DNA from: Porphyromonas cangingivalis
GTDB lineage: Bacteria > Bacteroidota > Bacteroidia > Bacteroidales > Porphyromonadaceae
Direction: 5' to 3'
NCBI RefSeq assembly: GCF_900638305.1
Contig: NZ_LR134506.1
Location: forward strand, 1,426,001-1,490,000
Length of the DNA: 64,000 nt
The notes below the pieces were generated by a model that did not search any database, was not told the DNA's origin, and saw only the letters and a program-made list of their open reading frames with translations. Positions 6,426 to 64,000 of this stretch are shown here, piece after piece. Within the stretch, counting starts at the first letter, position 1; each line of letters opens with the position of its first letter. A program made the translations under genes and the position numbers.

Positions 6426-6848
6426 TCACTTGTGTATCACCTTGAGATAGGCAAAGAAATTCCCCTCTTGAAGCACCACATCATATACAACCTGATCATC
6501 CGATGTCTTCGGATTAACCTTGATGTGGAGGATGTTTCCTTGCCTCATCACTTCGCAGAAGTTGCACTTATACCCGATCTGTCTTTTGCTCTCATCCTCT
6601 ATGATAGTGAGATTGTCGTCTTTGGTCAAAGGATGCCCATTTCGAAGCAGACTCTGCACCCGCCATGCATCCGAAGCTGTCTGAAGGTCCAATGTGCCAC
6701 CCGTTTTCTCAAAGAAAACCTCCTTGACACCCAGTTTGATCGTGTCGTCCGAGCGTCCTAAATCTTGTCTATCCTCTGCTTGTTTTTTGCAAGAAAGCAT
6801 AGTGAAGGCTACGATAAAAGCCAAGAGAAGTGTTGTTAATTTGTTCAT
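6426..6848 (-). CDS. Small Cys-lipoprotein, possible BACON-like domain
   Basis: The 140-residue protein opens with a lipoprotein signal ending in MLSC (Cys20). The rest is predicted beta-rich: GGTLDLQTASDAWRVQSLL, then ITIIEDESKR-like strands and a closing VVYDVVLQEGNFFAYLKVI. The pattern of a Trp in 'DAWRV' followed by a short beta sandwich recalls the BACON domains of Bacteroidota lipoproteins, but the match is weak and the true family is not recognised. Two further Cys (in KCNFCEV) form a CxxC that might be a disulfide. It is a single gene, upstream of ychF on the same strand. Confidence 0.75.
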   Translation of the reverse strand: MNKLTTLLLAFIVAFTMLSCKKQAEDRQDLGRSDDTIKLGVKEVFFEKTGGTLDLQTASDAWRVQSLLRNGHPLTKDDNLTIIEDESKRQIGYKCNFCEVMRQGNILHIKVNPKTSDDQVVYDVVLQEGNFFAYLKVIHK

Positions 6849-6974: not shown

Positions 6975-7035
6975 ATCAAGTCTTACGACTTAATTTCGAA
7001 AGTCGTAAGACTTGATGAAACGAGTCGTAAAACCT
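6975..7035. repeat. Dispersed intergenic palindrome element, copy A
   Basis: ATCAAGTCTTACGACTT (6975-6991) and its perfect reverse complement (7000-7016) flank an 8-nt loop, followed by GATGAAACGAGTCGTAAAACC and a T-run. The element lies in the 509-nt gap between the small lipoprotein gene and cas3, otherwise AT-rich and without a recognisable gene. It shares its AAGTYNNNNRACTT units and GATGA(A/C)A linkers with the elements at 22785, 38268, 39849, 47405 and 63933. Confidence 0.8.
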
Positions 7036-7357
7036 TTTTTGCCCATCATCACCACTTCACCATAAGAGGGACATTCAGTTGGTAATCAAGTCAAAAAAGC
7101 CACACCCCTCAAACTCACGAAAGCAGGATCAAAACATAAACCATTACGATACCTCCGAGGGCTCTGACAACCTTCCCCAAAAGTAAAGTAATGAGCATCC
7201 TTGCAGAAATCAAAATTTATCAATAAAATTGTAAGAGAATAAAAAAACACACCTTGATCTAAACCGGATCACGCATCACGCCGACGGTAAAAACATGATC
7301 AGCACGCAATAATTACTCATTTTACAAATACAATAAAGACATAGGTATTTAGCCCCC

Positions 7358-9661
7358 ATGCTGACCACAGAGCAAAATATCGCCCACATATCACCCGACC
7401 ACCGCATACAATCACTGGAAGAGCATGCGGTGAAAGTCGCTTCACTATGCCGTCAGTTCGCATCAAAGACAGGCGTCCCACAGGCGGATCAGATAGGTTT
7501 TGCTCTAGGGTTACTGCACGACTTCGGAAAGTCTTCGGAAGGATTTCAGACCTATATCATACAATCAGGACTAAAAGGAAAGCCTGCAACAAAGTCTCCA
7601 CACAGCCTCTATGGAGCCGAAGTCGGTTACCGTTATTCCTCAAGCGCAATTATAGGGAAAATACTCGCTTACTGCATCAGTGGGCACCATAGAGGGTTGT
7701 ATGATGAGGATCTGATGGCTAAAAAGATAGAATTAGAAGCCCACAAAATATCTCAGGACACTCAACGCCTGCTAGATGCGTATCCCGAGATGGCAACAGA
7801 ATTCAAGAAGGCGACCGAAGGACTCATGCTAACCCATATGTCATGGGAAGACATCCAACTCCTTGTTCGAATGCTGTTTTCGTGCCTTGTAGATGCGGAC
7901 TCTTTGGACACCGAGGCTTTTTGCAATCCAATGCAATATACAGAGCGAATTGACTCGACCATCCAAATAAACATTGAACTATGGCAGTGTCTTAAACTTC
8001 TGCTGCAAAAAAAGACAGAGACCTTCAGCCAAACAAGTGCGATAAACCAAACTAGAGCCCGCTTCTTGTCTCAATGTATAGAACACGGACAAAAGGCGTC
8101 CAAAGGAATTTACTCTCTATCCCTTCCAACAGGAGCTGGCAAGACCTTGAGTTCCATGGCTTGGGCATTGGAGTGCGCCATCAAGCACCAAGCAAGTCGG
8201 ATTATTATTGTCATTCCATTTACCTCGATTATCACCCAGACTGCAAGCGAACTAAAGAAAGTTTTTGGGGAACATATGGTCTTCGAACACCATTCTGAGG
8301 TCTCGGATCCCTCTGAAAAAGCTAAATACGAGAGTAAAAATGCGGTACTAAAAGCCCTTGCAGAAAACTGGGACGCACCGATTATCGTCACTACAAATGT
8401 CCAATTCTTCGAATCTCTATTCAGCAATAAAAGGGCTCGTTGTCGCAAGCTACACAACATCTGCAACGCAGTTGTGATATTTGATGAGGTGCAAATGTTC
8501 CCCACAAAATTTCTACACCCTATGGTGCGGAGTATTGAGAGTCTCACTCGCATGTTTGGCACACAAATATTATTGTGTACTGCGACACAACCTATTTTCA
8601 ATGAAAAAGTAAGTAATCCAACGTTCTATACCCTCAAACAGAAAGCAGAGGAGGTGATACCATTTGCTCCGGAAACTTTCTCAATTTTTAATAGAGTCGA
8701 ATATAATATAGATAGTTCGGAAACCGATATAGAGAGCTTGGCGCAAAGATTGGCTCAACATCCCTCAGTTCTTTGCATCGTTAACACACGCAAAGATGCT
8801 TTGCAACTAGCACAAGCACTGAAGCAAATCTCAACCGATAAGGAAGGAGTGCTTATACATCTATCTAGGATGATGTGTTCTGTGCACCTCAAAGAGACAA
8901 TTCAAAAAGTAAAGGTACGTCTAGCTAAAGGGCTCCCAACAAGAGTCATCAGTACCCAGCTCATCGAAGCAGGTGTGGATCTAGATTTCCCAATAGTTTA
9001 TCGAGCAAGTGCAGGCTTAGACTCTATCATCCAAGCCGGAGGACGATGCAATAGAGAAGGTAAACTCTCTACCAAGGGACAAGTGTATATCTTCCGACTC
9101 CCAAAATCATATACCCCGACAGAACTACTCCGTAGCCAACAAGCCATGGAGTTGGCCACATACGACACAGAGGGGAAAAGTATCGATCACCCAGATATCA
9201 TTTATAGCTACTTTTCCCATCTGTACGGAGCCAAGATCAACTGTGACACAAACAACATCTCAGACCTCCTATGGGATCAAAGCAAGTGTTGCAAGATAAA
9301 ACTTAATTTCGAGGAGGCTAGCAATAAATTTAAGCTTATAGATAACGGATATATAGACCTCTATGTTCCCTATACTCCGAACCCGGAATATTCAAAACTT
9401 GATGGAGAGGCACTCATTGCAGACCTGACATCCAGAGGAGCGATGAGCACTGAAGAGTTTAGACGATTACAACAATTTAAGGTTGGTCTGCGAGAAAAAG
9501 ATTTCCTCGAATTGTACACACAAGGCATTATCAAGGCTATATATATATGGGGCGAAAGCAACCCTCCCATATATGTCCTCGCATCGAAGCACAACTATTC
9601 AGAAGACTTTGGCATCTTACTTCGAAATTTCTTCATAGAGGAGCCTTTAATATTCTTATAA
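7358..9661 (+). CDS. cas3: CRISPR-associated nuclease/helicase Cas3, type I-C
   Basis: The 767-residue protein fuses an N-terminal HD nuclease (H23, then H54-D55 in LLHDFGK, then SGHHRG) with a superfamily 2 helicase: Walker A LPTGAGKTL at about 256-264, DEVQ as the Walker B box at about 375, CTATQP as motif III, and STQLIEAGVDLDFP with QAGGRCNREG as motifs V and VI. Cas3 is recruited to DNA bound by Cascade and degrades it processively. It is the first gene of a seven-gene plus-strand operon in type I-C order. No catalytic residue appears to be missing. Confidence 0.97.
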   Translation: MLTTEQNIAHISPDHRIQSLEEHAVKVASLCRQFASKTGVPQADQIGFALGLLHDFGKSSEGFQTYIIQSGLKGKPATKSPHSLYGAEVGYRYSSSAIIGKILAYCISGHHRGLYDEDLMAKKIELEAHKISQDTQRLLDAYPEMATEFKKATEGLMLTHMSWEDIQLLVRMLFSCLVDADSLDTEAFCNPMQYTERIDSTIQINIELWQCLKLLLQKKTETFSQTSAINQTRARFLSQCIEHGQKASKGIYSLSLPTGAGKTLSSMAWALECAIKHQASRIIIVIPFTSIITQTASELKKVFGEHMVFEHHSEVSDPSEKAKYESKNAVLKALAENWDAPIIVTTNVQFFESLFSNKRARCRKLHNICNAVVIFDEVQMFPTKFLHPMVRSIESLTRMFGTQILLCTATQPIFNEKVSNPTFYTLKQKAEEVIPFAPETFSIFNRVEYNIDSSETDIESLAQRLAQHPSVLCIVNTRKDALQLAQALKQISTDKEGVLIHLSRMMCSVHLKETIQKVKVRLAKGLPTRVISTQLIEAGVDLDFPIVYRASAGLDSIIQAGGRCNREGKLSTKGQVYIFRLPKSYTPTELLRSQQAMELATYDTEGKSIDHPDIIYSYFSHLYGAKINCDTNNISDLLWDQSKCCKIKLNFEEASNKFKLIDNGYIDLYVPYTPNPEYSKLDGEALIADLTSRGAMSTEEFRRLQQFKVGLREKDFLELYTQGIIKAIYIWGESNPPIYVLASKHNYSEDFGILLRNFFIEEPLIFL

Positions 9662-9674
9662 TATCATTCAAATT

Positions 9675-10442
9675 ATGGACTACTTTGACAAAGAGTATTG
9701 TATAGAAGTCACCGGAGATTACGCTTGTTTCACCCAGCCTGCGTTCAAGGCTGAGCGTTTTTCGTACCCGGCACCTACCCCCTCGGCTATGCGCAACATC
9801 CTTCAATCGATCTTTTGGGTCAAAGGAGCTACCGAATGGGAGATTACCAAAATTGAAGTTCTCAAACCAATCCAATTCGAAGTCATCAAGATGAATGAAG
9901 TTGGGGGGATTCGTAATCTTTCAGGGAGTAAGCTCACCAAACGGGAGCTACAAACACCTGCAGGGAAAGAAATAACAAAGAAGGTCAAACTACCTGATCC
10001 CATATATATCGACAATGATAGACAACAGAGAGTCTCCTGCGTCCTCAAGGATGTGGCTTATCGTATATATGCCAAGCTCGTCTTCATCCCGATACATAAA
10101 CGTTCTCATCAAGATCAAGAGATTACAAAGGCTAAACTTGCCCAAAAGGGGACGAAGGATGAGAACCCCGGAAAATACTACGCAGAGTTTGAGCGGAGGA
10201 TCAAGTCCGGAGGATGTTTTCAGCAACCCTATCTAGGAATAAGAGAGTATAGTTGCTCATTCGAACTTGTGGAACACCCTAAACCTATGGGCATCCCACA
10301 AGACCAAGATCTCGGGATTATGCTCTTTGACTTAGACTTTGAAAGCAATCCGACAAATCCCACCCCACTTTTCTTTCACGCCCGAATGAAGCAGGGAGTA
10401 ATACACATTCCAAATATCAAGAGTAAGGAGATACTACGATGA
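9675..10442 (+). CDS. cas5c: Cas5c (Cas5d), pre-crRNA endonuclease and Cascade subunit
   Basis: The 255-residue protein begins with a Cas5-type RAMP fold (YCIEVTGDYACFTQPAFKAERFSYPAPTPSAMRN). In type I-C systems, which lack Cas6, this subunit cuts the precursor RNA at the base of the repeat stem and stays on the 5' handle. A Lys/His cluster (HKRSH) lies where the catalytic Lys-His of Cas5d enzymes is expected. It starts 13 nt after cas3 and overlaps cas8c by 4 nt (ATGA), which indicates translational coupling. Confidence 0.95.
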   Translation: MDYFDKEYCIEVTGDYACFTQPAFKAERFSYPAPTPSAMRNILQSIFWVKGATEWEITKIEVLKPIQFEVIKMNEVGGIRNLSGSKLTKRELQTPAGKEITKKVKLPDPIYIDNDRQQRVSCVLKDVAYRIYAKLVFIPIHKRSHQDQEITKAKLAQKGTKDENPGKYYAEFERRIKSGGCFQQPYLGIREYSCSFELVEHPKPMGIPQDQDLGIMLFDLDFESNPTNPTPLFFHARMKQGVIHIPNIKSKEILR

Positions 10443-12223
10443 TGCTAAAAGCCTTGGCGGAGTACTACGACCGCCTACCAGAAGAGAAATGCTTGCCTCC
10501 CTATGGACAAGAGAATGTAGGTATTGCCTGGATACTTGCGCTTAGCCAAGAAGGTAAATTTATATCACTACAACCTCAGATTACCTCTAAAAATGACCCG
10601 CTCCCTATCTACCAAGTTTCCACTCGCCCTATTACGACGAGTGGAATAGAATCCCCATATTTTTTTGGTAAGATATCATATGTATTGGGGATTGGAGACA
10701 AGAATGGAAAAAAGAATGCAGACTTTGTAGATACGGTGAACAAAATTGCAAACTTCTTCCGTAATGACACTGATTTTCAAGCGGTACAGCAATTCTACAA
10801 GAGCCCGGAAGACGTCGACAAAGCCAAAAGTGCGTATGAGAGAGAAAAGAAAAATAATTCTTTCATCCAAGAGAATGCACTTGTTGCTTTTTCCATTTAC
10901 AAGCCAGGCAGACATACCCCTCTGGTTGCAGAGAAAGAGGAGCTCATCATCTATCGAAAGCATTTGGACGAACAAGAACAATCTACATTGACACTATGTA
11001 GTATTACGGGAGAGGAGGGGCCTACCACAAGACTCCATCCAAGTGTTGTTGGTAATGCAAAACTTATCAGTTTCCAAGAAAATAGTGTATTCGATTCATA
11101 CGGCAAGACCAAAGGAGATAATGCCCCTATCAATAAAGTCATTGCAGACAAAATTGCAAAGGCTTTCAAACATCTACATACAAGTAAGTACAATCATCAC
11201 AAAGACAACAGATACAAAATCCAGCACATCTACTGGATCAGTCAGTCCAGGGAAGTTAACGATGATATGATCGCAACATTTGTAGATGCCGTATTTGATG
11301 ACCCTCAGGACTCTGCAGAGATCGTAAAAGAGATTCTAAAGTTATCCAATAGTGCTGACTCTTTTCATTCTGACAAGGAATTCCACATTATGTCATATGT
11401 CCCGGGGGAAGGACGTATCGCAGTATACCAATGGAGAACCGGCATAGTTGAAAAGGTTTTTGCCAATATCTGGGAGCATCATCAAAACCTCAATACGATC
11501 AATGCAAAAGGAGAGTTGGATGAAGACTATCCCCCAATCTATTCCCTATCCAGACTATTAACAGCTCTGGAATATGGGAAAAAGGGAGATCAGACACGTC
11601 CCTCCTCAACTTTTATACAACATATATTGGACAGTATTATTTGGAGACGTAAGTATCCACGACTAATACTAATGAGAGCTGTACAAAAGTTATCAAGCAC
11701 TATTCTGAAACTACCGGAATATCATAATAAAAGTAAAGGTAAAGATTATAACGCATCAATAGATATCCTAATCGGGCTTATCAAAGCCTACCATAAACGC
11801 AACTGTAAAATAAGTATACCTATGAAGTTAGATGAAGAATTCAGCGACCAAGCCTATGTCCTCGGTCGACTTATGAGAGTATATCAGGAGACACAAGAGC
11901 GTGCATTAGGCTACGGTCTCAATTCCACGGTATTCGACAAGTTCTACCGCAAAGCTTTGACAGCCCCACAACAAGTCTTTCCACGAAATCTGGAAAGTCT
12001 CTTCTCTGCCCACATCGGGAAAATCCGTCGCAAGAACAGCTATCTGGCAGAGCTCCTTCAGGAGAAGAAAGCCAAGCTGACTGATATGCTACCCAAAGAA
12101 AAACCGTTCCCTGCTCATCTTACAATAGAAGAACGTGGGCGTTTCCTTTGTGGCTACGGTCATCAGTTCCTTCAAGATAAGATGGATCAAAAAGAACAAA
12201 AGAAGAAGAAAAACGAAGATTAA
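10439..12223 (+). CDS. cas8c: Cas8c (Csd1), large subunit of type I-C Cascade
   Basis: The 594-residue protein has the Csd1 size and position, between cas5c and cas7c. It opens with MMLKALAEYYDRLPEEKCLPP, the usual start of the family, and has the family's FHVM-like SFHSDKEFHIMSYVPGEGRIAVYQW block near the middle. Cas8c recognises the protospacer-adjacent motif. In type I-C an internal start inside cas8c commonly yields a separate Cas11c small subunit, so an internal ribosome entry in the last third is expected but I cannot point to it. The C-terminus is very rich in Lys and Glu. Confidence 0.95.
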   Translation: MMLKALAEYYDRLPEEKCLPPYGQENVGIAWILALSQEGKFISLQPQITSKNDPLPIYQVSTRPITTSGIESPYFFGKISYVLGIGDKNGKKNADFVDTVNKIANFFRNDTDFQAVQQFYKSPEDVDKAKSAYEREKKNNSFIQENALVAFSIYKPGRHTPLVAEKEELIIYRKHLDEQEQSTLTLCSITGEEGPTTRLHPSVVGNAKLISFQENSVFDSYGKTKGDNAPINKVIADKIAKAFKHLHTSKYNHHKDNRYKIQHIYWISQSREVNDDMIATFVDAVFDDPQDSAEIVKEILKLSNSADSFHSDKEFHIMSYVPGEGRIAVYQWRTGIVEKVFANIWEHHQNLNTINAKGELDEDYPPIYSLSRLLTALEYGKKGDQTRPSSTFIQHILDSIIWRRKYPRLILMRAVQKLSSTILKLPEYHNKSKGKDYNASIDILIGLIKAYHKRNCKISIPMKLDEEFSDQAYVLGRLMRVYQETQERALGYGLNSTVFDKFYRKALTAPQQVFPRNLESLFSAHIGKIRRKNSYLAELLQEKKAKLTDMLPKEKPFPAHLTIEERGRFLCGYGHQFLQDKMDQKEQKKKKNED

Positions 12224-21729: not shown

Positions 21730-22389
21730 TTATGATCTTTGGTGAGTTAAGAGGTCGGAGGGGATTGCCTGCTCTGCCCGCAAGAGTTTTCCCCAGCCCC
21801 CTGTGCTGAAGCGTACAAACTCTTCGACAAAATTTTCGACCTCCTTTTTGGTCAGTTCCTCATGACGCACCACCACCCTGAGCATATTGAGCCAGAGGGA
21901 CGATGCAAAGTGCATGAACAGAGGGGATATATCCGTATAGAGTTGAGGATAGTGGGTCTTCATCTCATCCAAACAGATCCGCCCCATCTCCGAGGCTTCA
22001 CTCTCCGCCCATTCCCTCACGTGATGTTGATAGCCCGAGCCCTGCGACTCGAAGAGCAAGAGTTTCAGCTCCCTGCGATAATGAAATACAATCCGCAGGC
22101 TCCGCTCGATCCAGTGTCTCAGCAACTCCTCGGATGTGAAGATCTCCACGGTAAACCTTCCCGGAGCATTGTGCTCCTGCATCATGGACTCGATGTCATC
22201 AAGGAGCGGCTTGAGCACATCGGCCAGCAGACTGTCCTTGTTGGGGTAATAGTTGTAGATGTTGCTCAGCCCCACACCGGACTTCTGAGAGATCTCACGC
22301 ATGGACACAGCCTTGAAGCCTTTCTTGAAGAAAGCCTCCCGAGCGGTGTTGAGCAACTGCAAGCGTGTGTGGTCTTTGATCTTCTGCAT
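21730..22389 (-). CDS. TetR/AcrR-family transcriptional regulator
   Basis: The 219-residue protein has an N-terminal helix-turn-helix (about residues 8-55: LLNTAREAFFKKGFKAVSMR, then SGVGLSNIYNYYPNKDSLL) and a variable all-helical ligand domain. TetR proteins are usually repressors that release DNA on binding a small molecule. It precedes the ABC pair on the same strand, so the likely target is that pair and possibly itself. No clear palindromic operator was found in the 200 nt between it and the transporter, apart from the terminator stem. Confidence 0.92.
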   Translation of the reverse strand: MQKIKDHTRLQLLNTAREAFFKKGFKAVSMREISQKSGVGLSNIYNYYPNKDSLLADVLKPLLDDIESMMQEHNAPGRFTVEIFTSEELLRHWIERSLRIVFHYRRELKLLLFESQGSGYQHHVREWAESEASEMGRICLDEMKTHYPQLYTDISPLFMHFASSLWLNMLRVVVRHEELTKKEVENFVEEFVRFSTGGWGKLLRAEQAIPSDLLTHQRS

Positions 22390-22784
22390 TGTGGTGTGTT
22401 ATTCTGCTTTGTAAAGTTCGGTATTGACGAAAATTCACACAATACCTCGAAATAGTGATTTTTCGTGCCGAAAGCTCCGAAATAGAGCCGTATCAAGGTA
22501 GACTCCCTCACATCCGAATACACTTACACCTATTTTCCCCTCTGAGTCCGCCCAATTCCACCCCCACCCCGTACGATATGTAGAGAAAGACAAAGAGAAG
22601 AAGACAAAAAGCTCGAAAGGCACTTCTCTACAATGAAAGACCTCTGAAGTAAACGGAGCCGAATCCTAAAAGTAAAGCCTTTCCCAAAGAAGGCTCATAC
22701 TCTTTACCTCAAATCACAGCCCAAAGAACACATACTCATTCCCGCTCTTCGAGCTATAGAGGGAGGGTCGGAAGGTCAACAAAA

Positions 22785-22846
22785 AAGTCGTATGACTTGA
22801 TCTAACAAGTTTAACGACTTTCGTCATCAAGTTTAACGACTTGATT
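22785..22846. repeat. Dispersed intergenic palindrome element, copy B
   Basis: The copy contains AAGTCGTATGACTT, then AAGTTTAACGACTT twice, joined by linkers GATCTAAC and TCGTCATC. The units share the AAGTYNNNNRACTT form with the other copies. Confidence 0.75.
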
Positions 22847-23135: not shown

Positions 23136-24458
23136 TTACTTCACTTCTACACGACGAGCCTTCACAGAAAGAGCAGCCTTACCTGAGAGAGCTTCATCCT
23201 TACCCATACCTCTTGTAGAGAGACGAGCAGCATCGATACCCTTGCTTACGAGGTACTTCTTCACGTTTTCAGCACGCTTGATAGAGAGCTTGTCGTTGAG
23301 AACTTCAGTACCTGTGTGGTCACAGAAACCTACTACATCGACAGAAAGAGTTGGGTTAGCGTTCAAGAACTCTACCATTTCAGCAAGTTCCTTAGCATAC
23401 TTCTTCTTGTTGACGACAGCGCTACCACGTACGAAGTGGATGCTTGGGAGGTTGACTTCCACCTTCTGAGCCTGACGAGCTGCTTCTTCTTCAAGACGAC
23501 GTCTTTCAGCTTCTGCCTTTTCACGAGCGATACGCTCAGCTTCTGCCTTTTCACGAGCAAGTCTTTCGGCTTCCGCCTTCTCCTTAGCGATGCGTTCAGC
23601 TTCGAGACGAGCAGCTACGCGCTCAGCAGCCATCTTGTTGATGGTACGAGCTGTAGGAGCATAGATGATGTTGTCTACCTTGTCGCTGTTACCGATCTTG
23701 TAGATAAGACCAAGACCTACCTGACCTACGACAGCGTGTTTTAGCTTGGTATAAGCCTCGTGGTTGATACCATCGTGGCTTGGGTTGTTAGAGATCCAAG
23801 CCGCACCACCCTTAAGAAGAAGGTCAAGGTGCTTAGAAGCACGGAAACGGATGTCAAGATCACCACCAAAGCTGAAGGTAAGATCTTGACCGATCTTTGG
23901 ATTGCTATAGACAGCCTTGTCAGAGATTTTCTTGAGCTCAGGCATGAACTTCTGTACATACGCAGCAGGGCTGAGGATAACAGCGACCTTACGGTTTGCA
24001 GAGCTGCTGAAGATAGGTGCGATATTGAAGTCAAAGTGTAGACCTGCACTCATGTGAGGGATAGAAGCATACACTTCTGAAAACTTCATAGAGCCATTGG
24101 TGTCGAGAGTGACCATACCGTCAGGCTTTACACGGAAGACATCCTCTCCCTTCTTGTATCCTGCATCACCCTTGCCATACTGACCTGTAAGGCTGATACC
24201 GAAGAATGGATTGAATTGATAGCCAATCTGAAGACCACCTACATAACCGAAGTGAGTCTTTTCGTGACCGAGGGTAGCCATATCTGCACCTTGGTAAAAT
24301 GGAAGACCACCATAGATACCAATCGTCCAGTGAGAGTAATCTTTCTTGATCTCTTGACGGATCTTATCAGCTTCCATCTTGATCTCTTCATTCGTCTGAG
24401 CAAATGCCACAGAAGAGAAAGCAAGAGTTGCAGCCAATGCAAAAACTGTTCTTTTCAT
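23136..24458 (-). CDS. OmpA-family outer-membrane protein
   Basis: From the ATG at 24458 the protein is 440 residues: a signal peptide (MKRTVFALAATLAFSSVAFA), an outer-membrane beta-barrel region (about 30-265), a charged helical linker with EKAEAERxAR repeats (about 275-320) and a C-terminal OmpA domain with FVRGSA, VVGFCDHTGT and the peptidoglycan-binding NDKLSIKRAENVKKYL helix. It should tie the outer membrane to peptidoglycan, like Pgm6/7 of P. gingivalis. An in-frame TTG two codons upstream was not used as start. A promoter -7 box lies at 24497-24504 and a strong terminator follows. Confidence 0.95.
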   Translation of the reverse strand: MKRTVFALAATLAFSSVAFAQTNEEIKMEADKIRQEIKKDYSHWTIGIYGGLPFYQGADMATLGHEKTHFGYVGGLQIGYQFNPFFGISLTGQYGKGDAGYKKGEDVFRVKPDGMVTLDTNGSMKFSEVYASIPHMSAGLHFDFNIAPIFSSSANRKVAVILSPAAYVQKFMPELKKISDKAVYSNPKIGQDLTFSFGGDLDIRFRASKHLDLLLKGGAAWISNNPSHDGINHEAYTKLKHAVVGQVGLGLIYKIGNSDKVDNIIYAPTARTINKMAAERVAARLEAERIAKEKAEAERLAREKAEAERIAREKAEAERRRLEEEAARQAQKVEVNLPSIHFVRGSAVVNKKKYAKELAEMVEFLNANPTLSVDVVGFCDHTGTEVLNDKLSIKRAENVKKYLVSKGIDAARLSTRGMGKDEALSGKAALSVKARRVEVK

Positions 24459-35440: not shown

Positions 35441-38206
35441 ATGAGCGAGAAAAACAATACCAAATCTGAGACCAACTCCAAATTCAGAGAGGGCTTGAAT
35501 GAACTCCTGAAACAAACGAAATCTTTCATCTTTGAAGAAGCCCAAAGTATCATTCTATTCCTTATAGCTCTTCTTCTACTCTTTCTTTTTGAAGATGAGA
35601 CGAAAGCTCTCTTTTACGATAAGGTCTTACCTGTCATGAATAGGATGAATTTTGGGATCGTAAGTTGGAGCATACTTTCTCTATTAGGCATCTTCCATCT
35701 TCACTATGTGTGGCAATGTGTGAAGAATAACTATCGAATTTCTGTATTCTCATTTCTACTTATCACACTTGTTATTATCCTCTTATTCAATGGTCTGCTA
35801 TTAGATTATTCAAGTATAGAGATCCAAATACTCATATTTTTCGTATTAGTTGCCATTCTCTGCTTCTGGATGTTCTCATTCATAAACTTTTTCCCTTGTC
35901 AAAGTGGAACAGAGACACAAGCGGAAGAGGAAAAGCTTTTAAGTATAGACACTCCAATCAAAAATAAGGATGATGATCGCTTAGGCTTCTCCGAAGACAT
36001 CGACCTTTTAATAAGCAAACTGCCTAAAGAGACAGAGCAGGCATACAGTGTAGGGATTGTAGGCTCTTGGGGTAGCGGAAAAACCTCTTACCTAAACCTC
36101 TTAGAAAAGAAGCTGAACAAAGAGCAGTTCATTGTCATCAAGTTTAACCCTCGTCATTCACTCAATGCTTGTACGATCCAAGAGGACTTCTTCCACGAGT
36201 TATTCTCAACATTGAAGAAATATGATTCGAGATTTTCAAGTTCTTTCAAGGATTACCTGAAAGCCATAAATATAATTGGGGAAAACAAGTTTTTATCCTC
36301 TTTCCTATCCATACATCAGCTTTGGAACAGTGGAAGAGAAAAACAAAAAATCAGTGAAGCAATAAAGAGACTCGGCAAAAGAGTGGTTGTGTTCATTGAT
36401 GACTTTGATCGTCTTTTACGAGAAGAGGTCATTGAGGTGTTGAAGCTCATCGATGGCAATGCTTCCTTTTCTAATATGATATTCTTCGCAGCTTACGACA
36501 AGCAATATCTTAATAAAATCCTTGTTTCCGAAAACACCAGTGAAACGAAACTATTTAGTGATAAGTATTTCTCGATAGAGCAATCTATCCCCTTCATCTC
36601 GGAAGAGGCTTTGTGGAATGAGATAACTAAAATACCTTGTATGAACAATAATGATCCATATTTCAAGGAGCTATACGAAAAAGAGTCTATCTTATATTTC
36701 ATCTTAAATCAGATACTACCTACTTTACGAGACCTGAAACGATTTTCAAATTTATTCTTACGATTTGAGAAAATTCAGAACGACGTAAATTTCAGAGACT
36801 ATTTTCTCCTGATGCTCATTAAATACAATTGGGAAAACGAATACTATCGCCTCAAAAAGAAGCAATATCTCAACCCAACTAATAGTGAATGGGAAGTTAT
36901 CAGTGAAAAGGTTGATATTAATGTAGAAAACAGTCATTTACTTAAGAAAATTCTACACCTACTATTTGAAAAGGAGGAAGTTACGATAAGAAAAAGAGGC
37001 CATATTTATAGGATCAAATCTATTCGAAGCATAAGAGCGTTTGAAATATATTTCCAAGAGAGAGTCAATAGCAACCTATCCTTTAACACTTTAGAACATC
37101 TTTTAAAAGAAGACGCTTGCAACTCCCTACCCATCATAGATCTTTGGTTTCAAGAAGGATATGATCGTGACATACTTGAATATTTGAGCTATTATGAAGG
37201 AAAAATCATGGACAAACATGATCTTTCTAAATTTCTATCAGTAGCTATTTATGCGTATGAAAAAGATAAAGAGATCAAATCTAAATCAGAGCAAAACAGT
37301 AAGAGCTTAGAGAAAACAGCACCAGATCAGAGAAAACCTTATACTCATGAATATACCCAATTAAAACCATCTAATTTTGAATGCTTCTCGCACCATTATA
37401 TTTATAAAATATCACCTGCATCTGACCGCCTTTTTGCCTCCAATGAAGAATATAAAATATGGATCAAAGATGAGCTAAAAAAACTACATATACACTTATA
37501 TTGTAGATGCGCCTTAGATATATCCGAACATGCACTTAATGATGATCATCCCTGTATTTCAAAACGCTTATTTAATCTATCTGAAGCTCGTGAGATTGTA
37601 AAAGATTCATTTTTAAACCTTATACATAAAGAACCTGAGATTAAGACCCGTCATATGGACTTATTGGAATCCTACATAAAACCCATGGAGAAAGAGAAAA
37701 CAGAGTTGAACAAAGAGATGTTAGAAGCTGTAATAACATCACTGGACAATTATGGATCTGAAGAGTTCTTCAGGAAACTATTTGTCAAAATTCCACCTAT
37801 GTATGAAGACTGTTTATCTTTTGGATTAACAATTCTTTCTGAGAAAATATTTGGGACAAAAGGGGATTTAGATAAATTCCTCACCGATCGAAAACACAGC
37901 ATAAAAATCCCCGATAAGATCAAGAAATTTTGGAGCCTATACAAAGGAAATAATTATGAAGTGTTTTCCCTTTATGAAGATATCCAATATGATACGGAAT
38001 GGCATCTTAAAACGGCGTGCAATAATTTAGAAAAGGTGTTAGAGATTGAGCACAAATTTGATGAATTAGTCAAGGATGGGAAAATAACATTAAAAAGAGC
38101 AGAGAGTTTATTAGAGACGATAAGAAAATTTCCAGTTAGGGTATCCAAATACCAAGATGTTGTAAACAAAATAAATCAAAAGATAGATGAGCTATCAAAA
38201 AGCTAA
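35441..38206 (+). CDS. KAP family P-loop NTPase with N-terminal membrane helices
   Basis: The 921-residue protein has four hydrophobic helices within residues 35-150 (for example IILFLIALLLLFLF), Walker A GSWGSGKTS at about 208-216 and Walker B VVVFIDDFDRLL at about 313-324, then a long helical C-terminus. This is the KAP group of STAND-like NTPases, some of which act in anti-phage exclusion (PifA) or toxin-like systems. The gene is much more AT-rich than its neighbours and is followed by an insertion sequence between two direct repeats, which suggests horizontal transfer. A defence role is inference; no partner gene is adjacent. Confidence 0.88.
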   Translation: MSEKNNTKSETNSKFREGLNELLKQTKSFIFEEAQSIILFLIALLLLFLFEDETKALFYDKVLPVMNRMNFGIVSWSILSLLGIFHLHYVWQCVKNNYRISVFSFLLITLVIILLFNGLLLDYSSIEIQILIFFVLVAILCFWMFSFINFFPCQSGTETQAEEEKLLSIDTPIKNKDDDRLGFSEDIDLLISKLPKETEQAYSVGIVGSWGSGKTSYLNLLEKKLNKEQFIVIKFNPRHSLNACTIQEDFFHELFSTLKKYDSRFSSSFKDYLKAINIIGENKFLSSFLSIHQLWNSGREKQKISEAIKRLGKRVVVFIDDFDRLLREEVIEVLKLIDGNASFSNMIFFAAYDKQYLNKILVSENTSETKLFSDKYFSIEQSIPFISEEALWNEITKIPCMNNNDPYFKELYEKESILYFILNQILPTLRDLKRFSNLFLRFEKIQNDVNFRDYFLLMLIKYNWENEYYRLKKKQYLNPTNSEWEVISEKVDINVENSHLLKKILHLLFEKEEVTIRKRGHIYRIKSIRSIRAFEIYFQERVNSNLSFNTLEHLLKEDACNSLPIIDLWFQEGYDRDILEYLSYYEGKIMDKHDLSKFLSVAIYAYEKDKEIKSKSEQNSKSLEKTAPDQRKPYTHEYTQLKPSNFECFSHHYIYKISPASDRLFASNEEYKIWIKDELKKLHIHLYCRCALDISEHALNDDHPCISKRLFNLSEAREIVKDSFLNLIHKEPEIKTRHMDLLESYIKPMEKEKTELNKEMLEAVITSLDNYGSEEFFRKLFVKIPPMYEDCLSFGLTILSEKIFGTKGDLDKFLTDRKHSIKIPDKIKKFWSLYKGNNYEVFSLYEDIQYDTEWHLKTACNNLEKVLEIEHKFDELVKDGKITLKRAESLLETIRKFPVRVSKYQDVVNKINQKIDELSKS

Positions 38207-38267
38207 GAAGTAGCATATCAAAAGGATACCGTCTGTCTGTCATTGCGACACTCCTTCCCTCAGTTGA

Positions 38268-38330
38268 AAAAAGTTGTCTAACTTGTTTCGTCACCTTAGA
38301 CGACTTTCGTTATCAAGTTAGACAACCTTT
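38268..38330. repeat. Dispersed intergenic palindrome element, copy C
   Basis: AAAAGTTGTCTAACTTG at the left pairs with CAAGTTAGACAACCTTT at the right around a central CCTTAGACGACTTTCG; linkers are TTTCGTCA and TTCGTTATC. The variable core differs from the other copies but the two arms change together. Confidence 0.75.
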
Positions 38331-38449
38331 TTCGGTGAGTTATATATCTTGTTTTGGGGAGGGTTTGGAGTTGCGTTAGAGCTTGATGCTCAAGTCGCAT
38401 GATTTGAGTGGATTACAACTCTTTCACCTTATGAGGATAGGGGATTAGC

Positions 38450-38488
38450 AAAAAGGCTATGTCACTTGCGTTGTGACATAGCCTTTTT
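38450..38488. terminator. Bidirectional terminator hairpin in left direct repeat
   Basis: AAAAAGGCTATGTCAC pairs perfectly with GTGACATAGCCTTTTT around a 7-nt loop. The T-run on both strands lets it stop the KAP gene transcript and the transposase transcript. Confidence 0.85.
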
Positions 38489-38514
38489 GTTGTATGGATA
38501 GTCTCTTTTTTCGG

Positions 38515-39841
38515 TAGTGTCCGAAAAAGTGTGTAAGGTTAGTTCTCCCTTTTTCCCCTGGGGCATGCCCCAGGGGAAAAACTTTGAGTTTTTCGTGTTA
38601 TTACTCATTACTCATTTATTTGGTACTCCACTCTTGGAAATAGGGTAACCTCCTAGCATAAGTCCTTTCAGTCATTTCTCGGGCTACAGAGCCCAAGAGA
38701 AAGACGACGGCATCAGCCGAGGGTAGAGCCCCACGCATACGCAGCGTACGCTTATAGCTGCGATTGAGACGCTCCACCCAATTCGTCGAGTAAATCATAC
38801 GACGAACACCCTCCGGGAACATCAGGTAAGTGAAGTAGCCTATATTGCGAGGTGCCGACAAGGAGAGCAGGCTCCGGTAGCTTTTCCCCCAACGTTCTGC
38901 AAATGTACACAATTTCTCAAATGCCTTGATGGGTGTAAGACTTGTACCCGAGATCGGAAACAAGTCTTCCAACTCTTGTCTCATCTGATCCTTGTCCCTC
39001 TTCGATACGGCATTAAGTGCGTGACGCTTGAAATGAACGACACACAGCTGATGGGAGGAGTGAGGGAAAGCCGAGGCGATGGCTCGTTCAATCCCCTGTA
39101 AAGCATCTGAGATGATCAGGTCTATACGTTCGACTCCACGTGTTTTGAGGGCTTTCAACTCTGCCTCCCAATTCAACGCTCCCTCCGTGGGATGATTCAC
39201 CACACAAAGCACCTCCCGACTACCGTCAGGAAGCAACCCCAACATCGTGTAATAGGCTTCCTGAGCCACACGATCCTCCCGCCGTGTGTAGGTAAAGGTA
39301 GCATCGATGTACACCGCCAAATAGTGGGGCGACAGTTGGCGTTCCAACCACTTGTAGATCTCCTCTTTACTCGTGTTCGAGAGAAAACTGACTTGCTGCT
39401 TGCTATAGTGATAGCCGTAGATCCGTTCGCACACCGAACCAATGTCTTCGCACGAAAGGCCTCGGGTATAAAGCTCGTGAAACAACAAGGCTCGTTCGCT
39501 CTCTTGGCTGGAAAGGATTCCCAAAATCAGGGGTTGGAAATTGCCCGAACGTGTTCGAGGAATCCGTAATTCAAAGCTACAGCCGTAGCCTCGCCATCGA
39601 CGAGGACGGAAACCATTGCATTGTTCACCCTCATGCTCTTCGACAAAGAGAGCACGTTCTTGCTTCGAGAAGGTGTCCAATAGTACACGGATAAGTTCGT
39701 TAATACCTGCCTCTGATGATAGCATTTCAGAAATAAATGCCGACTTTTGTGTTGTTGTAAGCTCCATTGTTCTTAGGTTTATTTTTTTTCTTACCTCAAA
39801 GTTAAGGACTAATGGGGCTTACACACTTTTTTAGGACAGTA
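38515..39841 (-). mobile_element. IS256-family insertion sequence, about 1327 bp
   Basis: The ends carry imperfect terminal inverted repeats: TAGTGTCC...GTGTGTAAG at 38515 and TACTGTCC...GTGTGTAAG read inward from 39841. One transposase gene fills the element. No matching 8-bp target duplication is visible; instead the element sits between two 252-bp direct repeats. It looks intact and potentially active. Confidence 0.85.
38616..39767 (-). CDS. IS256-family (Mutator-type) transposase
   Basis: The 383-residue transposase has the DDE triad of the family: Asp in VYIDATFTY, Asp in DLIISDALQGIERAI followed by CVVHFKRH, and Glu in STNWVERLNRSYKR. The C(2)H-type HxxCxxHFxRN-like block (HQLCVVHFKRHAL) is also diagnostic. 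Length is near the usual 390-400 and the frame is intact. It catalyses copying or movement of the surrounding element. Confidence 0.95.
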   Translation of the reverse strand: MELTTTQKSAFISEMLSSEAGINELIRVLLDTFSKQERALFVEEHEGEQCNGFRPRRWRGYGCSFELRIPRTRSGNFQPLILGILSSQESERALLFHELYTRGLSCEDIGSVCERIYGYHYSKQQVSFLSNTSKEEIYKWLERQLSPHYLAVYIDATFTYTRREDRVAQEAYYTMLGLLPDGSREVLCVVNHPTEGALNWEAELKALKTRGVERIDLIISDALQGIERAIASAFPHSSHQLCVVHFKRHALNAVSKRDKDQMRQELEDLFPISGTSLTPIKAFEKLCTFAERWGKSYRSLLSLSAPRNIGYFTYLMFPEGVRRMIYSTNWVERLNRSYKRTLRMRGALPSADAVVFLLGSVAREMTERTYARRLPYFQEWSTK

Positions 39842-39843
39842 TC

Positions 39844-40095
39844 GTTGAAAAAAGTTGTCTAACTTGTTTCATCACCTTAGACGACTTTCGTCATCAAGTT
39901 AGACAACCTTTTTCGGTGAGTTATATATCTTGTTTTGGGGAGGGCTTGGAGTTGCGTTAGAGCTTGATGCTCAAGTCGCATGATTTGAGTGGATTACAGC
40001 TCTTTCACCTTATGAGGATAGGGGATTAGCAAAAAGGCTATGTCACTTGCGTTGTGACATAGCCTTTTTGATGTACGGATAGTCTTTTTTCTCAG
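39844..40095. repeat. 252-bp direct repeat, right copy
   Basis: This is the near-identical partner of 38263-38514. It includes its own dispersed palindrome element (39849-39912, copy D, which differs from copy C by two C/T and G/A changes in the linkers) and the hairpin at 40031-40069. Its right end overlaps the last bases of ccsA. Confidence 0.9.
40031..40069 (-). terminator. Terminator after ccsA
   Basis: This is the same 16-bp perfect hairpin (AAAAAGGCTATGTCAC arm) as at 38450-38488, now 23 nt beyond the ccsA stop; on the minus strand the stem ends in a T-run. Confidence 0.85.
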
Positions 40096-40883
40096 TTTGA
40101 ATACATGTGGATGCTGTCAGAGGCGGAGGGGAGGAAGTTGACGCCGTACCAGCACATCTGGAGGAAGAGGAAGCTGACGATGAGGATGATCGCCGACTGC
40201 TTGAAGCGTTTGGGGTGGAAACGGCGGTGGTGGATGTACAGCATATAGGCAGCCATGGTTATCGCCGCCCAAGTCTCTTTGGGATCCCAGCCCCAATAAG
40301 TGCCCCATGCCTGCTTTGCCCAGATCGCCCCGAGGAGGAGTCCGACGATGAGAAAGCCTGTGCCCGTATAGACGAGGTTGTCCGTGACATAGAGGCGGTG
40401 AGGGTCTTTATCCTCCTTTTTGTAGAGCATATAGATCGCCAGCAAGAGGGCTGCGCCGAGCATCCCGTAGGCGAACATGTAGGAGATCACGTGGGGGACG
40501 AAGAAGGGGCTTTCGAGGGCGGGCATCATCGTCTTGGAGTGGATCTCGGGCTTGAAGATATTGATGCAGATAAAGACCGTCGAAAGGACGGTCGAGAAGC
40601 CGAGGATCCAGCGATAACGCCAACGGCTGTAAACGATGAGCCCTGCAATGATGACGAAGAACGAATACCAGAGCCGTGTCTCGCCCATAGTGCGCATCGG
40701 TGGGCGTTCGAGCGAATGCCACATCCCTGCGATGTACACCCCGAAGACGATGAGTGCCAGGACGGTGACGGTGATGGCAGGGGCAAACTTTTCCTTAAAT
40801 CCCAAATAAGCACCCAAGGCACAGATGGCTACGGTCGGGAGGGCGAAGTATATGAAGTCGTGCCAGTCGAGGAGGAAGTTCAT
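40092..40883 (-). CDS. ccsA: Cytochrome c biogenesis protein CcsA (System II)
   Basis: From the ATG at 40883, which overlaps the resB stop (ATGA), the protein is 263 residues with about eight membrane helices. It has the WWD heme-handling motif WGTYWGWDPKETWA and flanking His residues (conserved in VPHVISYM and HHRRFH). CcsA with CcsB exports heme and attaches it to CxxCH sites of periplasmic cytochromes. An in-frame longer start would put a charged 33-residue tail on the protein and was rejected. It is the last gene of the nitrite reductase unit. Confidence 0.93.
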   Translation of the reverse strand: MNFLLDWHDFIYFALPTVAICALGAYLGFKEKFAPAITVTVLALIVFGVYIAGMWHSLERPPMRTMGETRLWYSFFVIIAGLIVYSRWRYRWILGFSTVLSTVFICINIFKPEIHSKTMMPALESPFFVPHVISYMFAYGMLGAALLLAIYMLYKKEDKDPHRLYVTDNLVYTGTGFLIVGLLLGAIWAKQAWGTYWGWDPKETWAAITMAAYMLYIHHRRFHPKRFKQSAIILIVSFLFLQMCWYGVNFLPSASDSIHMYSN

Positions 40884-47338: not shown

Positions 47339-47404
47339 TTCTGTGTCTATGAGGCTCGACCCAAAAGCACAATACCCGAAAGCACAACAATATATCCCGA
47401 CAAA

Positions 47405-47473
47405 AAAGTCGTTTGACTTGATGACGAAAGTCGTTTGACTTGTTTCATCAAGTCAAACGACTTAATTTCGACC
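47405..47473. repeat. Dispersed intergenic palindrome element, copy E
   Basis: AAGTCGTTTGACTT occurs twice and is followed by its complement-like partner AAGTCAAACGACTT. The linkers are GATGACGA and GTTTCATC. Three units make this the most complete copy. It lies in the 551-nt convergent gap between hemH and nifJ; a further 'GATGAAACAAGTCATACC' fragment follows at 47512. Confidence 0.8.
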
Positions 47474-47678
47474 CTTCCACAACCTTTTCCGAAAGCCTGA
47501 CACTACTCGATGAAACAAGTCATACCTCTTTGATTGATAAGCCAAAGGCTGTTTGAACTCTGTCGTGGCGAAAAAAGTCTGTAAAGATGGGGACGGGAAC
47601 AAAAAAAAACGCTTTGCCGCCTCCGGCACTTCATTTTGAAATGAGAGGGGATTTGAGGAGCTACCTGCTCCAAAAGGA

Positions 47679-63932: not shown

Positions 63933-63985
63933 AATAACTCGTTTCATCAAATCAGGCAACCTTCGTTATCAAGTTATATGACTTT
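63933..63985. repeat. Dispersed intergenic palindrome element, copy F (partial)
   Basis: The copy holds AAGTTATATGACTT at its right end, the linker GTTTCATC and a TTCGTTATC linker, with a decayed left unit. It lies upstream of the last gene and close to the window edge. Confidence 0.65.
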
Positions 63986-64000
63986 TTCACGGACTGCGTG

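Follow-up and report, generated by a model that had tools for sequence, protein, structure and literature searches.

Intergenic palindrome arrays with a fixed 22-bp pitch and species-specific cores in Porphyromonas cangingivalis and related genomes

Introduction

Dispersed palindromes in bacterial genomes are usually explained by the activity of RAYT transposases or as transcription terminators. The BOX elements of Streptococcus pneumoniae are modular intergenic hairpins whose inner modules vary in number, and we know of no 22-bp phased palindromes among them. REP sequences and BIMEs are short intergenic palindromes, often found in inverted pairs, which may form larger hairpins; the part of the source available to us also describes CGTC repeats from Bacteroidetes, with stems of 8-9 bp and no known transposase (PMC3733652). 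The BrickBuilt MITEs of Porphyromonas gingivalis are intergenic tandem arrays of a 23-nt unit, AGAYCATARTATCCTCTCRTRTG, with leader and tail flanks, and the available text on them mentions 22-nt tandem repeats in strain W83 (PMC4596501). Finally, the DUS of Neisseriaceae occur as dialects, i.e. species-specific versions of one dispersed signal, in thousands of copies, common in genes and sometimes inverted and associated with terminators (PMC3630211, as far as the accessible part goes).

Here, we analyse a window of 64 kb, i.e. the whole stretch of DNA under study, from the genome of Porphyromonas cangingivalis (G000; 2,404,857 bp in one contig). A first-pass annotation had pointed out six related intergenic elements in it and had listed a REP-like element, a protein-binding site or an RNA structure as candidates. 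We show that these elements belong to a family with a constant geometry and a sequence that varies among species, with no RAYT-type gene in the four AAGT-type genomes searched.

A genome-wide family of palindromes

The repeat unit is the 14-bp palindrome AAGT-N6-ACTT followed by an 8-nt linker, which makes a pitch of 22 bp. The six places are real and stand where the first-pass annotation put them (Table 1): allowing up to 2 mismatches, the two-unit pattern AAGTY/RACTT matches 9 times in the window, against 0.00 expected from 100 shuffles, and none of the elements overlaps a gene called by our home-made ORF caller. The first-pass annotation had made its claim depend on a genome-wide search, and copies are found throughout G000, where the same pattern and threshold give 109 unit pairs, against 0 for the reversed control pattern. 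The stretches round 102 of these 109 places (100 and 2 more), together with the window, resolve into 63 elements of 2-9 units each. Congener G001 has at least 42 elements, from stretches round places among the matches listed (174 places counted). The six elements of the window are part of a genome-wide family, larger than the window alone could show. The annotation was right about the family and the palindromes, yet it missed that the regular feature is AAGT-N6-ACTT at a fixed 22-bp pitch, that the cores are species-specific, and that elements 3 and 4 have a common origin. These two are not independent, because both sit in a 253-bp direct repeat, and element 6 is degraded.

Table 1. Array elements of the window and their neighbourhood (positions in the window)
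Element	Coordinates	Strand	Structure	Neighbours
1	6975..7040	.	three units 6978, 7000, 7022; T-run at right end	ORF 6426-6848 (-) and cas3-like gene 7358-9661 (+)
2	22781..22846	.	three units 22785, 22807, 22829; A-run at left end	TetR-like gene 21730-22389 (-) and OmpA-like gene 23136-24458 (-)
3	38266..38333	.	units 38271, 38293, 38315; core type of congener G001; within 253-bp repeat copy 1	
4	39847..39914	.	copy of element 3; units 39852, 39874, 39896; within 253-bp repeat copy 2	
5	47402..47488	.	A-run from 47402; units 47406, 47428, 47450, then a degraded one at the end; T-run 47485-47488	convergent gap, hemH and pyruvate:ferredoxin oxidoreductase gene
6	63949..63987	.	degraded; two units 63949, 63971 (2 mismatches); near window edge	

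Rfam gave 0 matches at gathering score in the window. We reject carriage by phages, as two exact core patterns matched 0 viral contigs, and plasmids gave no match in a megablast with 6.7 kb from the window. Literature searches with the core sequences gave, among the matches listed, papers unrelated by title and none with a 14-mer; among those listed in searches for Porphyromonas repeats that are palindromic or 22 bp long, none describes the AAGT family in its title or the opening of its abstract.

The BOX elements share with the AAGT arrays the modular intergenic hairpin; module lengths and sequences differ. REP sequences and BIMEs are similarly short, intergenic and palindromic, but the AAGT palindromes form arrays of as many as 9 units at a fixed 22-bp pitch and have no clear gene-end bias. 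In counts made on the linkers, the REP tags GTAG/CTAC occur in 0 of 205 and CGTC/GACG in 46 of 205, and by reading the single-unit stem measures 5 bp, shorter than in the CGTC class. On the tag, as counted in linkers, and on the stem, the arrays do not fit GTAG- or CGTC-tagged REPs. The check for a RAYT gene proposed in the first-pass annotation came out negative: among 27 genomes searched for the Y1 tyrosine transposase PF01797, there were 0 matches in G000, G001, G012 and G015, and 2 in G013, a genome with a second sequence type (see below). On the first four of these array-bearing genomes a RAYT-linked REP is rejected. BrickBuilt resembles the AAGT arrays in being intergenic, in having tandem units of similar length and, we infer, in coming from the same family of bacteria. 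Yet its unit is another sequence, with 0 matches in the genus and, allowing up to 3 mismatches, 0 in G000. Among the 38 genomes of the family it matches only G023 and G022, and we therefore take G023 to be P. gingivalis and the family to be Porphyromonadaceae. G023 has 0 AAGT pairs and 1 pair of the reversed pattern; the W83 repeat, which shares the family and the 22-nt unit length, was compared by its description.

Anatomy, folding and covariation of the arms

The orientation of a unit is set by its core, CGTTAG and its kin being forward in G000. Left ends are often AAAAAAGTCGT and right ends often ACGACTTTTTT. Many ends are capped by runs of A, or of T on the opposite side. At 61 of the 126 ends of the 63 elements AA lies directly outside the outer unit, mostly continuing with more A (33 others have TC and 32 something else), which agrees with the earlier statement that no T-run is common to all copies. 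Both ends are run-capped in 25 of 62 elements. The first unit is forward in 35 of 60 elements and the last reverse in 35 of 60. The elements of G001 are polar, with a forward-reverse hairpin beside an A/T-run and then units with CATTCATC-type linkers. Neighbouring units resemble each other: within an element, 58 of 120 pairs are perfect in either direct or inverted order, compared with 12.7% for units of different elements (this count and that of orientations cover 60 of the 63 elements, excluding 2305614, 1781825 and 1465852).

The elements of G000 fold better than shuffled sequences, with a mean z of -4.0 and 68% of 124 strands below -2 (62 of the 63 elements, excluding 2305614). The perfect 17-bp arm pair mentioned in the first-pass annotation joins 6975-6991 to 7000-7016 in element 1. 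The claim that structure is kept through co-varying arms also held. In 22 of the 23 forward-reverse pairs of G000 (the duplicate element 4 being excluded), the covariation score was reached by 0 of 500 shuffles, and both sides of a pair had changed in 27 cells, against a shuffled mean of 16.1. Base pairs with double-sided change numbered 8, against 5.9 in shuffles (reached by 17 of 500), and further pair types numbered 15, no more than in shuffles (mean 15.8). This covariation supports pairing of the arms. It cannot tell selection apart from template switching, because the latter homogenises inverted repeats without selection: in the accessible part of a yeast study, it is described as homogenising the arms and inverting the spacer (PMC8604942).

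A fixed pitch with changing sequences

Four genomes were scanned with linkers of 2-16 nt allowed and only perfect half-sites counted. Of the 49 exact pairs, 48 had the 8-nt linker, i.e. the 22-bp pitch: 23/23 in G000 (7 of them from one 9-unit array), 18/19 in G001, 5/5 in G012 and 2/2 in G046. In stretches that were themselves located by a 22-bp pattern, successive units at most 60 bp apart are separated by 22 or 44 bp in 67/77 cases in G000, 53/60 in G001, 66/67 in G012 with G015, 11/12 in G046 and 15/17 in G045 with G049, and by 22 bp in 47/54 in the G053 set. The pitch is kept by arrays with other units and linkers, in G045, G046, G049, G053 and G013, again located via the 22-bp pattern. 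Generic dyads recur at lags of 22 and 33 in G012/G015, G001 and the G053 set; their signal is weak in G000 (4 at lag 22 and 6 at lag 33, against 0-4 at other lags) and absent in G024.

Arrays at this pitch, of one of two sequence types, occur in 12 of the 38 genomes of the family. With at most 1 mismatch, eight genomes have at least four AAGT-type pairs (G000 47, G001 75, G012 26, G046 15, G015 14, G045 5, G049 5 and G024 4), and G010 and G013 have 1 each. The second type, AGTTTCA-N6-TGAAACT, also spaced by 22 bp, emerged from the reversed control pattern, with 34 pairs in G053, 13 in G051, 12 in G013 and 6 in G021. Among 393 sampled genomes of the order, those outside the family have AAGT-type counts of 4 at most. 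The reversed pattern TTCA-N6-TGAA at 22 bp was seen 76 times in G193 and 15 times in G136, which belong to other families of the order. We also observed in G046 similar arrays within repeated DNA (L266-L269; 296 and 309 bp, 96% and 90% identity), where L266 and L267 match over 1000 bp at 91%, perhaps as a mobile unit carrying an array.

The cores are specific to the species. With five cores as references for G000 and one, in both orientations, for G001, and excluding element 2305614, 173 of 186 units of G000 are nearer to their own core types and 12 to that of G001, and 121 of 124 units of G001 have their own core type. This change of core can be followed at one position. The element at 1377418, between two ABC-transporter-type genes, and its G001 counterpart both have three forward units between an A-run and a T-run, and unit positions 5, 8 and 9 differ between the species identically across all three units. 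Of 77 sides of orthologous genes, 7 have an element in both species (deriving from 5 elements of G001), 4 in G000 only, 12 in G001 only and 54 in neither (p 0.004). Among sides with gaps of at least 60, 150, 200 and 250 bp in both species, p becomes 0.06, 0.23, 0.40 and 0.30. Hence, after control for gap length the sharing of array positions is overall only suggestive; to us it is convincing at 1377418 and beside the probable origin of replication, where the flanking DNA aligns well. A comparison of five gaps with G001 for empty sites gave no clean ends, as the intergenic DNA is too diverged. At four places in G001 (L200, L204, L205 and L257), the orthologs of the flanking genes are far apart in G000, as if rearrangements ended at the elements.

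Two explanations for the arrays

We rank first, tentatively, the possibility that the elements are short arrays of recognition sites for a putative dimeric DNA-binding protein. One dimer would occupy each 14-bp palindrome. As 22 bp is about two helical turns, neighbouring dimers would face the same side of the helix and could bind together, and the protein would co-evolve with its sites, leaving each species with its own core. A palindromic site repeated at a pitch in apparent phase with the helix is what such an array should look like. We infer the binding, its cooperativity and the co-evolution of sites and protein from these regularities. If such binding occurs, it may organise the chromosome, regulate genes or serve to move the repeat; one might guess at a role in chromosome architecture, because the elements favour no one gene context strongly. 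Of ten proteins encoded beside arrays, none is a likely candidate: nine fall into ordinary families, one of them a DUF, and the tenth matches no family.

Close behind comes a selfish hairpin repeat, akin to REP or BOX, which is also a possible account. It would have been spread by some enzyme, its arms homogenised by template switching within hairpins and its pitch inherited, and no bound protein would be needed after insertion. The likeness of neighbouring units within an element, the presence of units in both orientations, the long hairpins, some with A/T-run ends, and a distribution close to that of intergenic length are all expected of it, and homogenisation of arms with inversion of the spacer is on record in the yeast work cited above. 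Many elements also fold strongly as single strands, which a site in duplex DNA does not need. The protein array is further at odds with the scarcity of arrays in the family: 26 of the 38 genomes have at most one match to either pattern, and 300 kb of congener G007 give no 22-bp dyad signal. The weak generic dyad signal of G000 and its absence from G024 also count against it.

The hairpin repeat has difficulties of its own. The four genomes named above lack the PF01797 transposase, and in 25 two-ended elements at most 2 bases match outside the runs (0-2 in all 25). There is thus no target-site duplication in these elements, which also leads us to reject a MITE with target duplication. Some positions are common to both species despite changed cores, a point weakened by the gap-length control. 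Between neighbouring units of G012, identity is 0.83 for cores and only 0.43 for linkers (0.62 and 0.38 in G015, 0.76 and 0.50 in G046, 0.73 and 0.53 in G000), yet the linkers remain 8 nt long. Binding of proteins on the same face would require such a constant length, whereas a pitch merely inherited with a hairpin would be expected to collect indels. But in the G053 set the linkers are more alike (0.84) than the cores (0.70), and in G000 26 of 123 linkers are of the GATGACGA type. Common descent could thus explain part of the fixed pitch. If a protein does read the arrays, they would form a new chromosome-wide site system; if none does, they would offer a natural example of how arms are homogenised in dispersed hairpins. 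A wider version of the protein array, which we regard as rather unlikely, is a site system of the whole Porphyromonadaceae, in which a dimeric protein would read palindromes two helical turns apart, some sites would keep their positions through speciation, including at the probable origin edge, and protein and sites would switch dialect together.

Placement in the genome and transcription termination

The elements are almost all intergenic: 60 of 63 are wholly so with both neighbours seen, 2 lie over weak ORF calls and 1 is at an edge. Random placement would put 51.9 of 61 elements in genes (excluding 2305614 and 1781825; 60 of the 61 are in gaps). By intergenic length, one expects 10.3 elements in convergent, 16.2 in divergent and 33.5 in co-directional gaps, and we observed 15, 13 and 32 (p 0.24). 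Element-free gaps of at least 100 bp are 13 convergent, 28 divergent and 85 co-directional, which is why an enrichment in convergent gaps appears only if length is ignored. The distribution is roughly proportional to intergenic length, and gene ends are not strongly favoured. In co-directional gaps no element comes closer than 47 bp to a start codon, and in divergent gaps none comes closer than 114 bp.

These data allow one to weigh a third explanation, that the arrays are intrinsic transcription terminators at gene ends, in part acting both ways. In G000 (excluding 2305614, 1781825 and 1465852 from T-run counts), T-runs at both ends concentrate in convergent gaps (6/15, against 3/44 elsewhere with the edge element excluded; p 0.006). 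In co-directional gaps the T-run follows transcription in 24 cases and opposes it in 13 (p 0.10; 15/7 in G000 and 9/6 in G001). Measured from the upstream stop, the median element lies at 0.35 of its gap (p 0.04). Some copies may thus also end transcription. Yet two-ended T-runs are rare everywhere in G001 (1/7 convergent, 2/35 others), and those arrays of G053, G012 and G024 that we read through have no closing T-run. Furthermore, 11 of the 13 elements in divergent gaps of G000 carry a T-run, and a terminator needs neither an exact 22-bp pitch nor up to 9 units. As a general explanation termination is therefore improbable. Plain terminators, RAYT-linked REPs, BrickBuilt and classical MITEs all fit poorly. 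The shortlist of the first-pass annotation was the right one. A RAYT link is not supported, and neither is RNA structure as the sole role, because divergent gaps hold 13 of 60 elements where their length predicts 16.2.

The least probable explanation, which we consider very doubtful, is a DNA-uptake-like signal with one dialect per species kept by within-species transformation: it would suit species-specific cores found genome-wide and has a parallel in the Neisseriaceae dialects, but there are about a hundred unit pairs instead of thousands of copies, with almost none in genes (of the 63 elements, 2 overlap called ORFs), and the accessible part of PMC3630211 mentions no phased arrays or strict multi-unit pitch for DUS.

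Relative to replication, the elements have no clear axis, with 19, 17, 9 and 15 of 60 in successive quarters of the arm by distance from the probable origin. The latter was placed where DnaA-box-like sites cluster at 1745.1-1745.6 kb of G000 (L171), near a sign change of GC skew in the stretches analysed. An array lies beside it in both G000 and G001.

Elements 3 and 4 and other features of the window

The 253-bp direct repeats (38263-38515 and 39844-40096, 96% identical) flank an IS256-family transposase gene (38616-39767). This gene has 15 copies in G000, only 2 of which adjoin listed array elements, and we therefore reject mobilisation of the family by an adjoining IS256-family element. The core comparison assigns elements 3 and 4 to the G001 type. 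Element 3 comes next to a gene for a KAP P-loop NTPase (35441-38206), whose codon use is at percentile 0 of the genes compared and for which a search of genome contigs found no relatives. An acquisition from a relative would fit the G001-type cores, the repeat flanking the IS256-family gene and the adjacent NTPase gene of odd codon use. It does not fit the third element of this type in G000, at 911891, whose neighbours have ordinary codon use (percentiles 23 to 93). The same region also holds a perfect 16-bp palindrome (38550-38581), near the IS256-family gene, and a perfect 17-bp stem-loop (38449-38489), repeated at 40030-40070.

Downstream of hemH, where element 5 lies, G001 likewise has an array. 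The oxidoreductase on the other side of element 5 has relatives in Bacteroidales and at more distant loci, with a best identity of 75%. Immediately to the right of element 1, the cas3-like gene is accompanied by one for Cas8c (type I-C), the two spanning 7358-12223.
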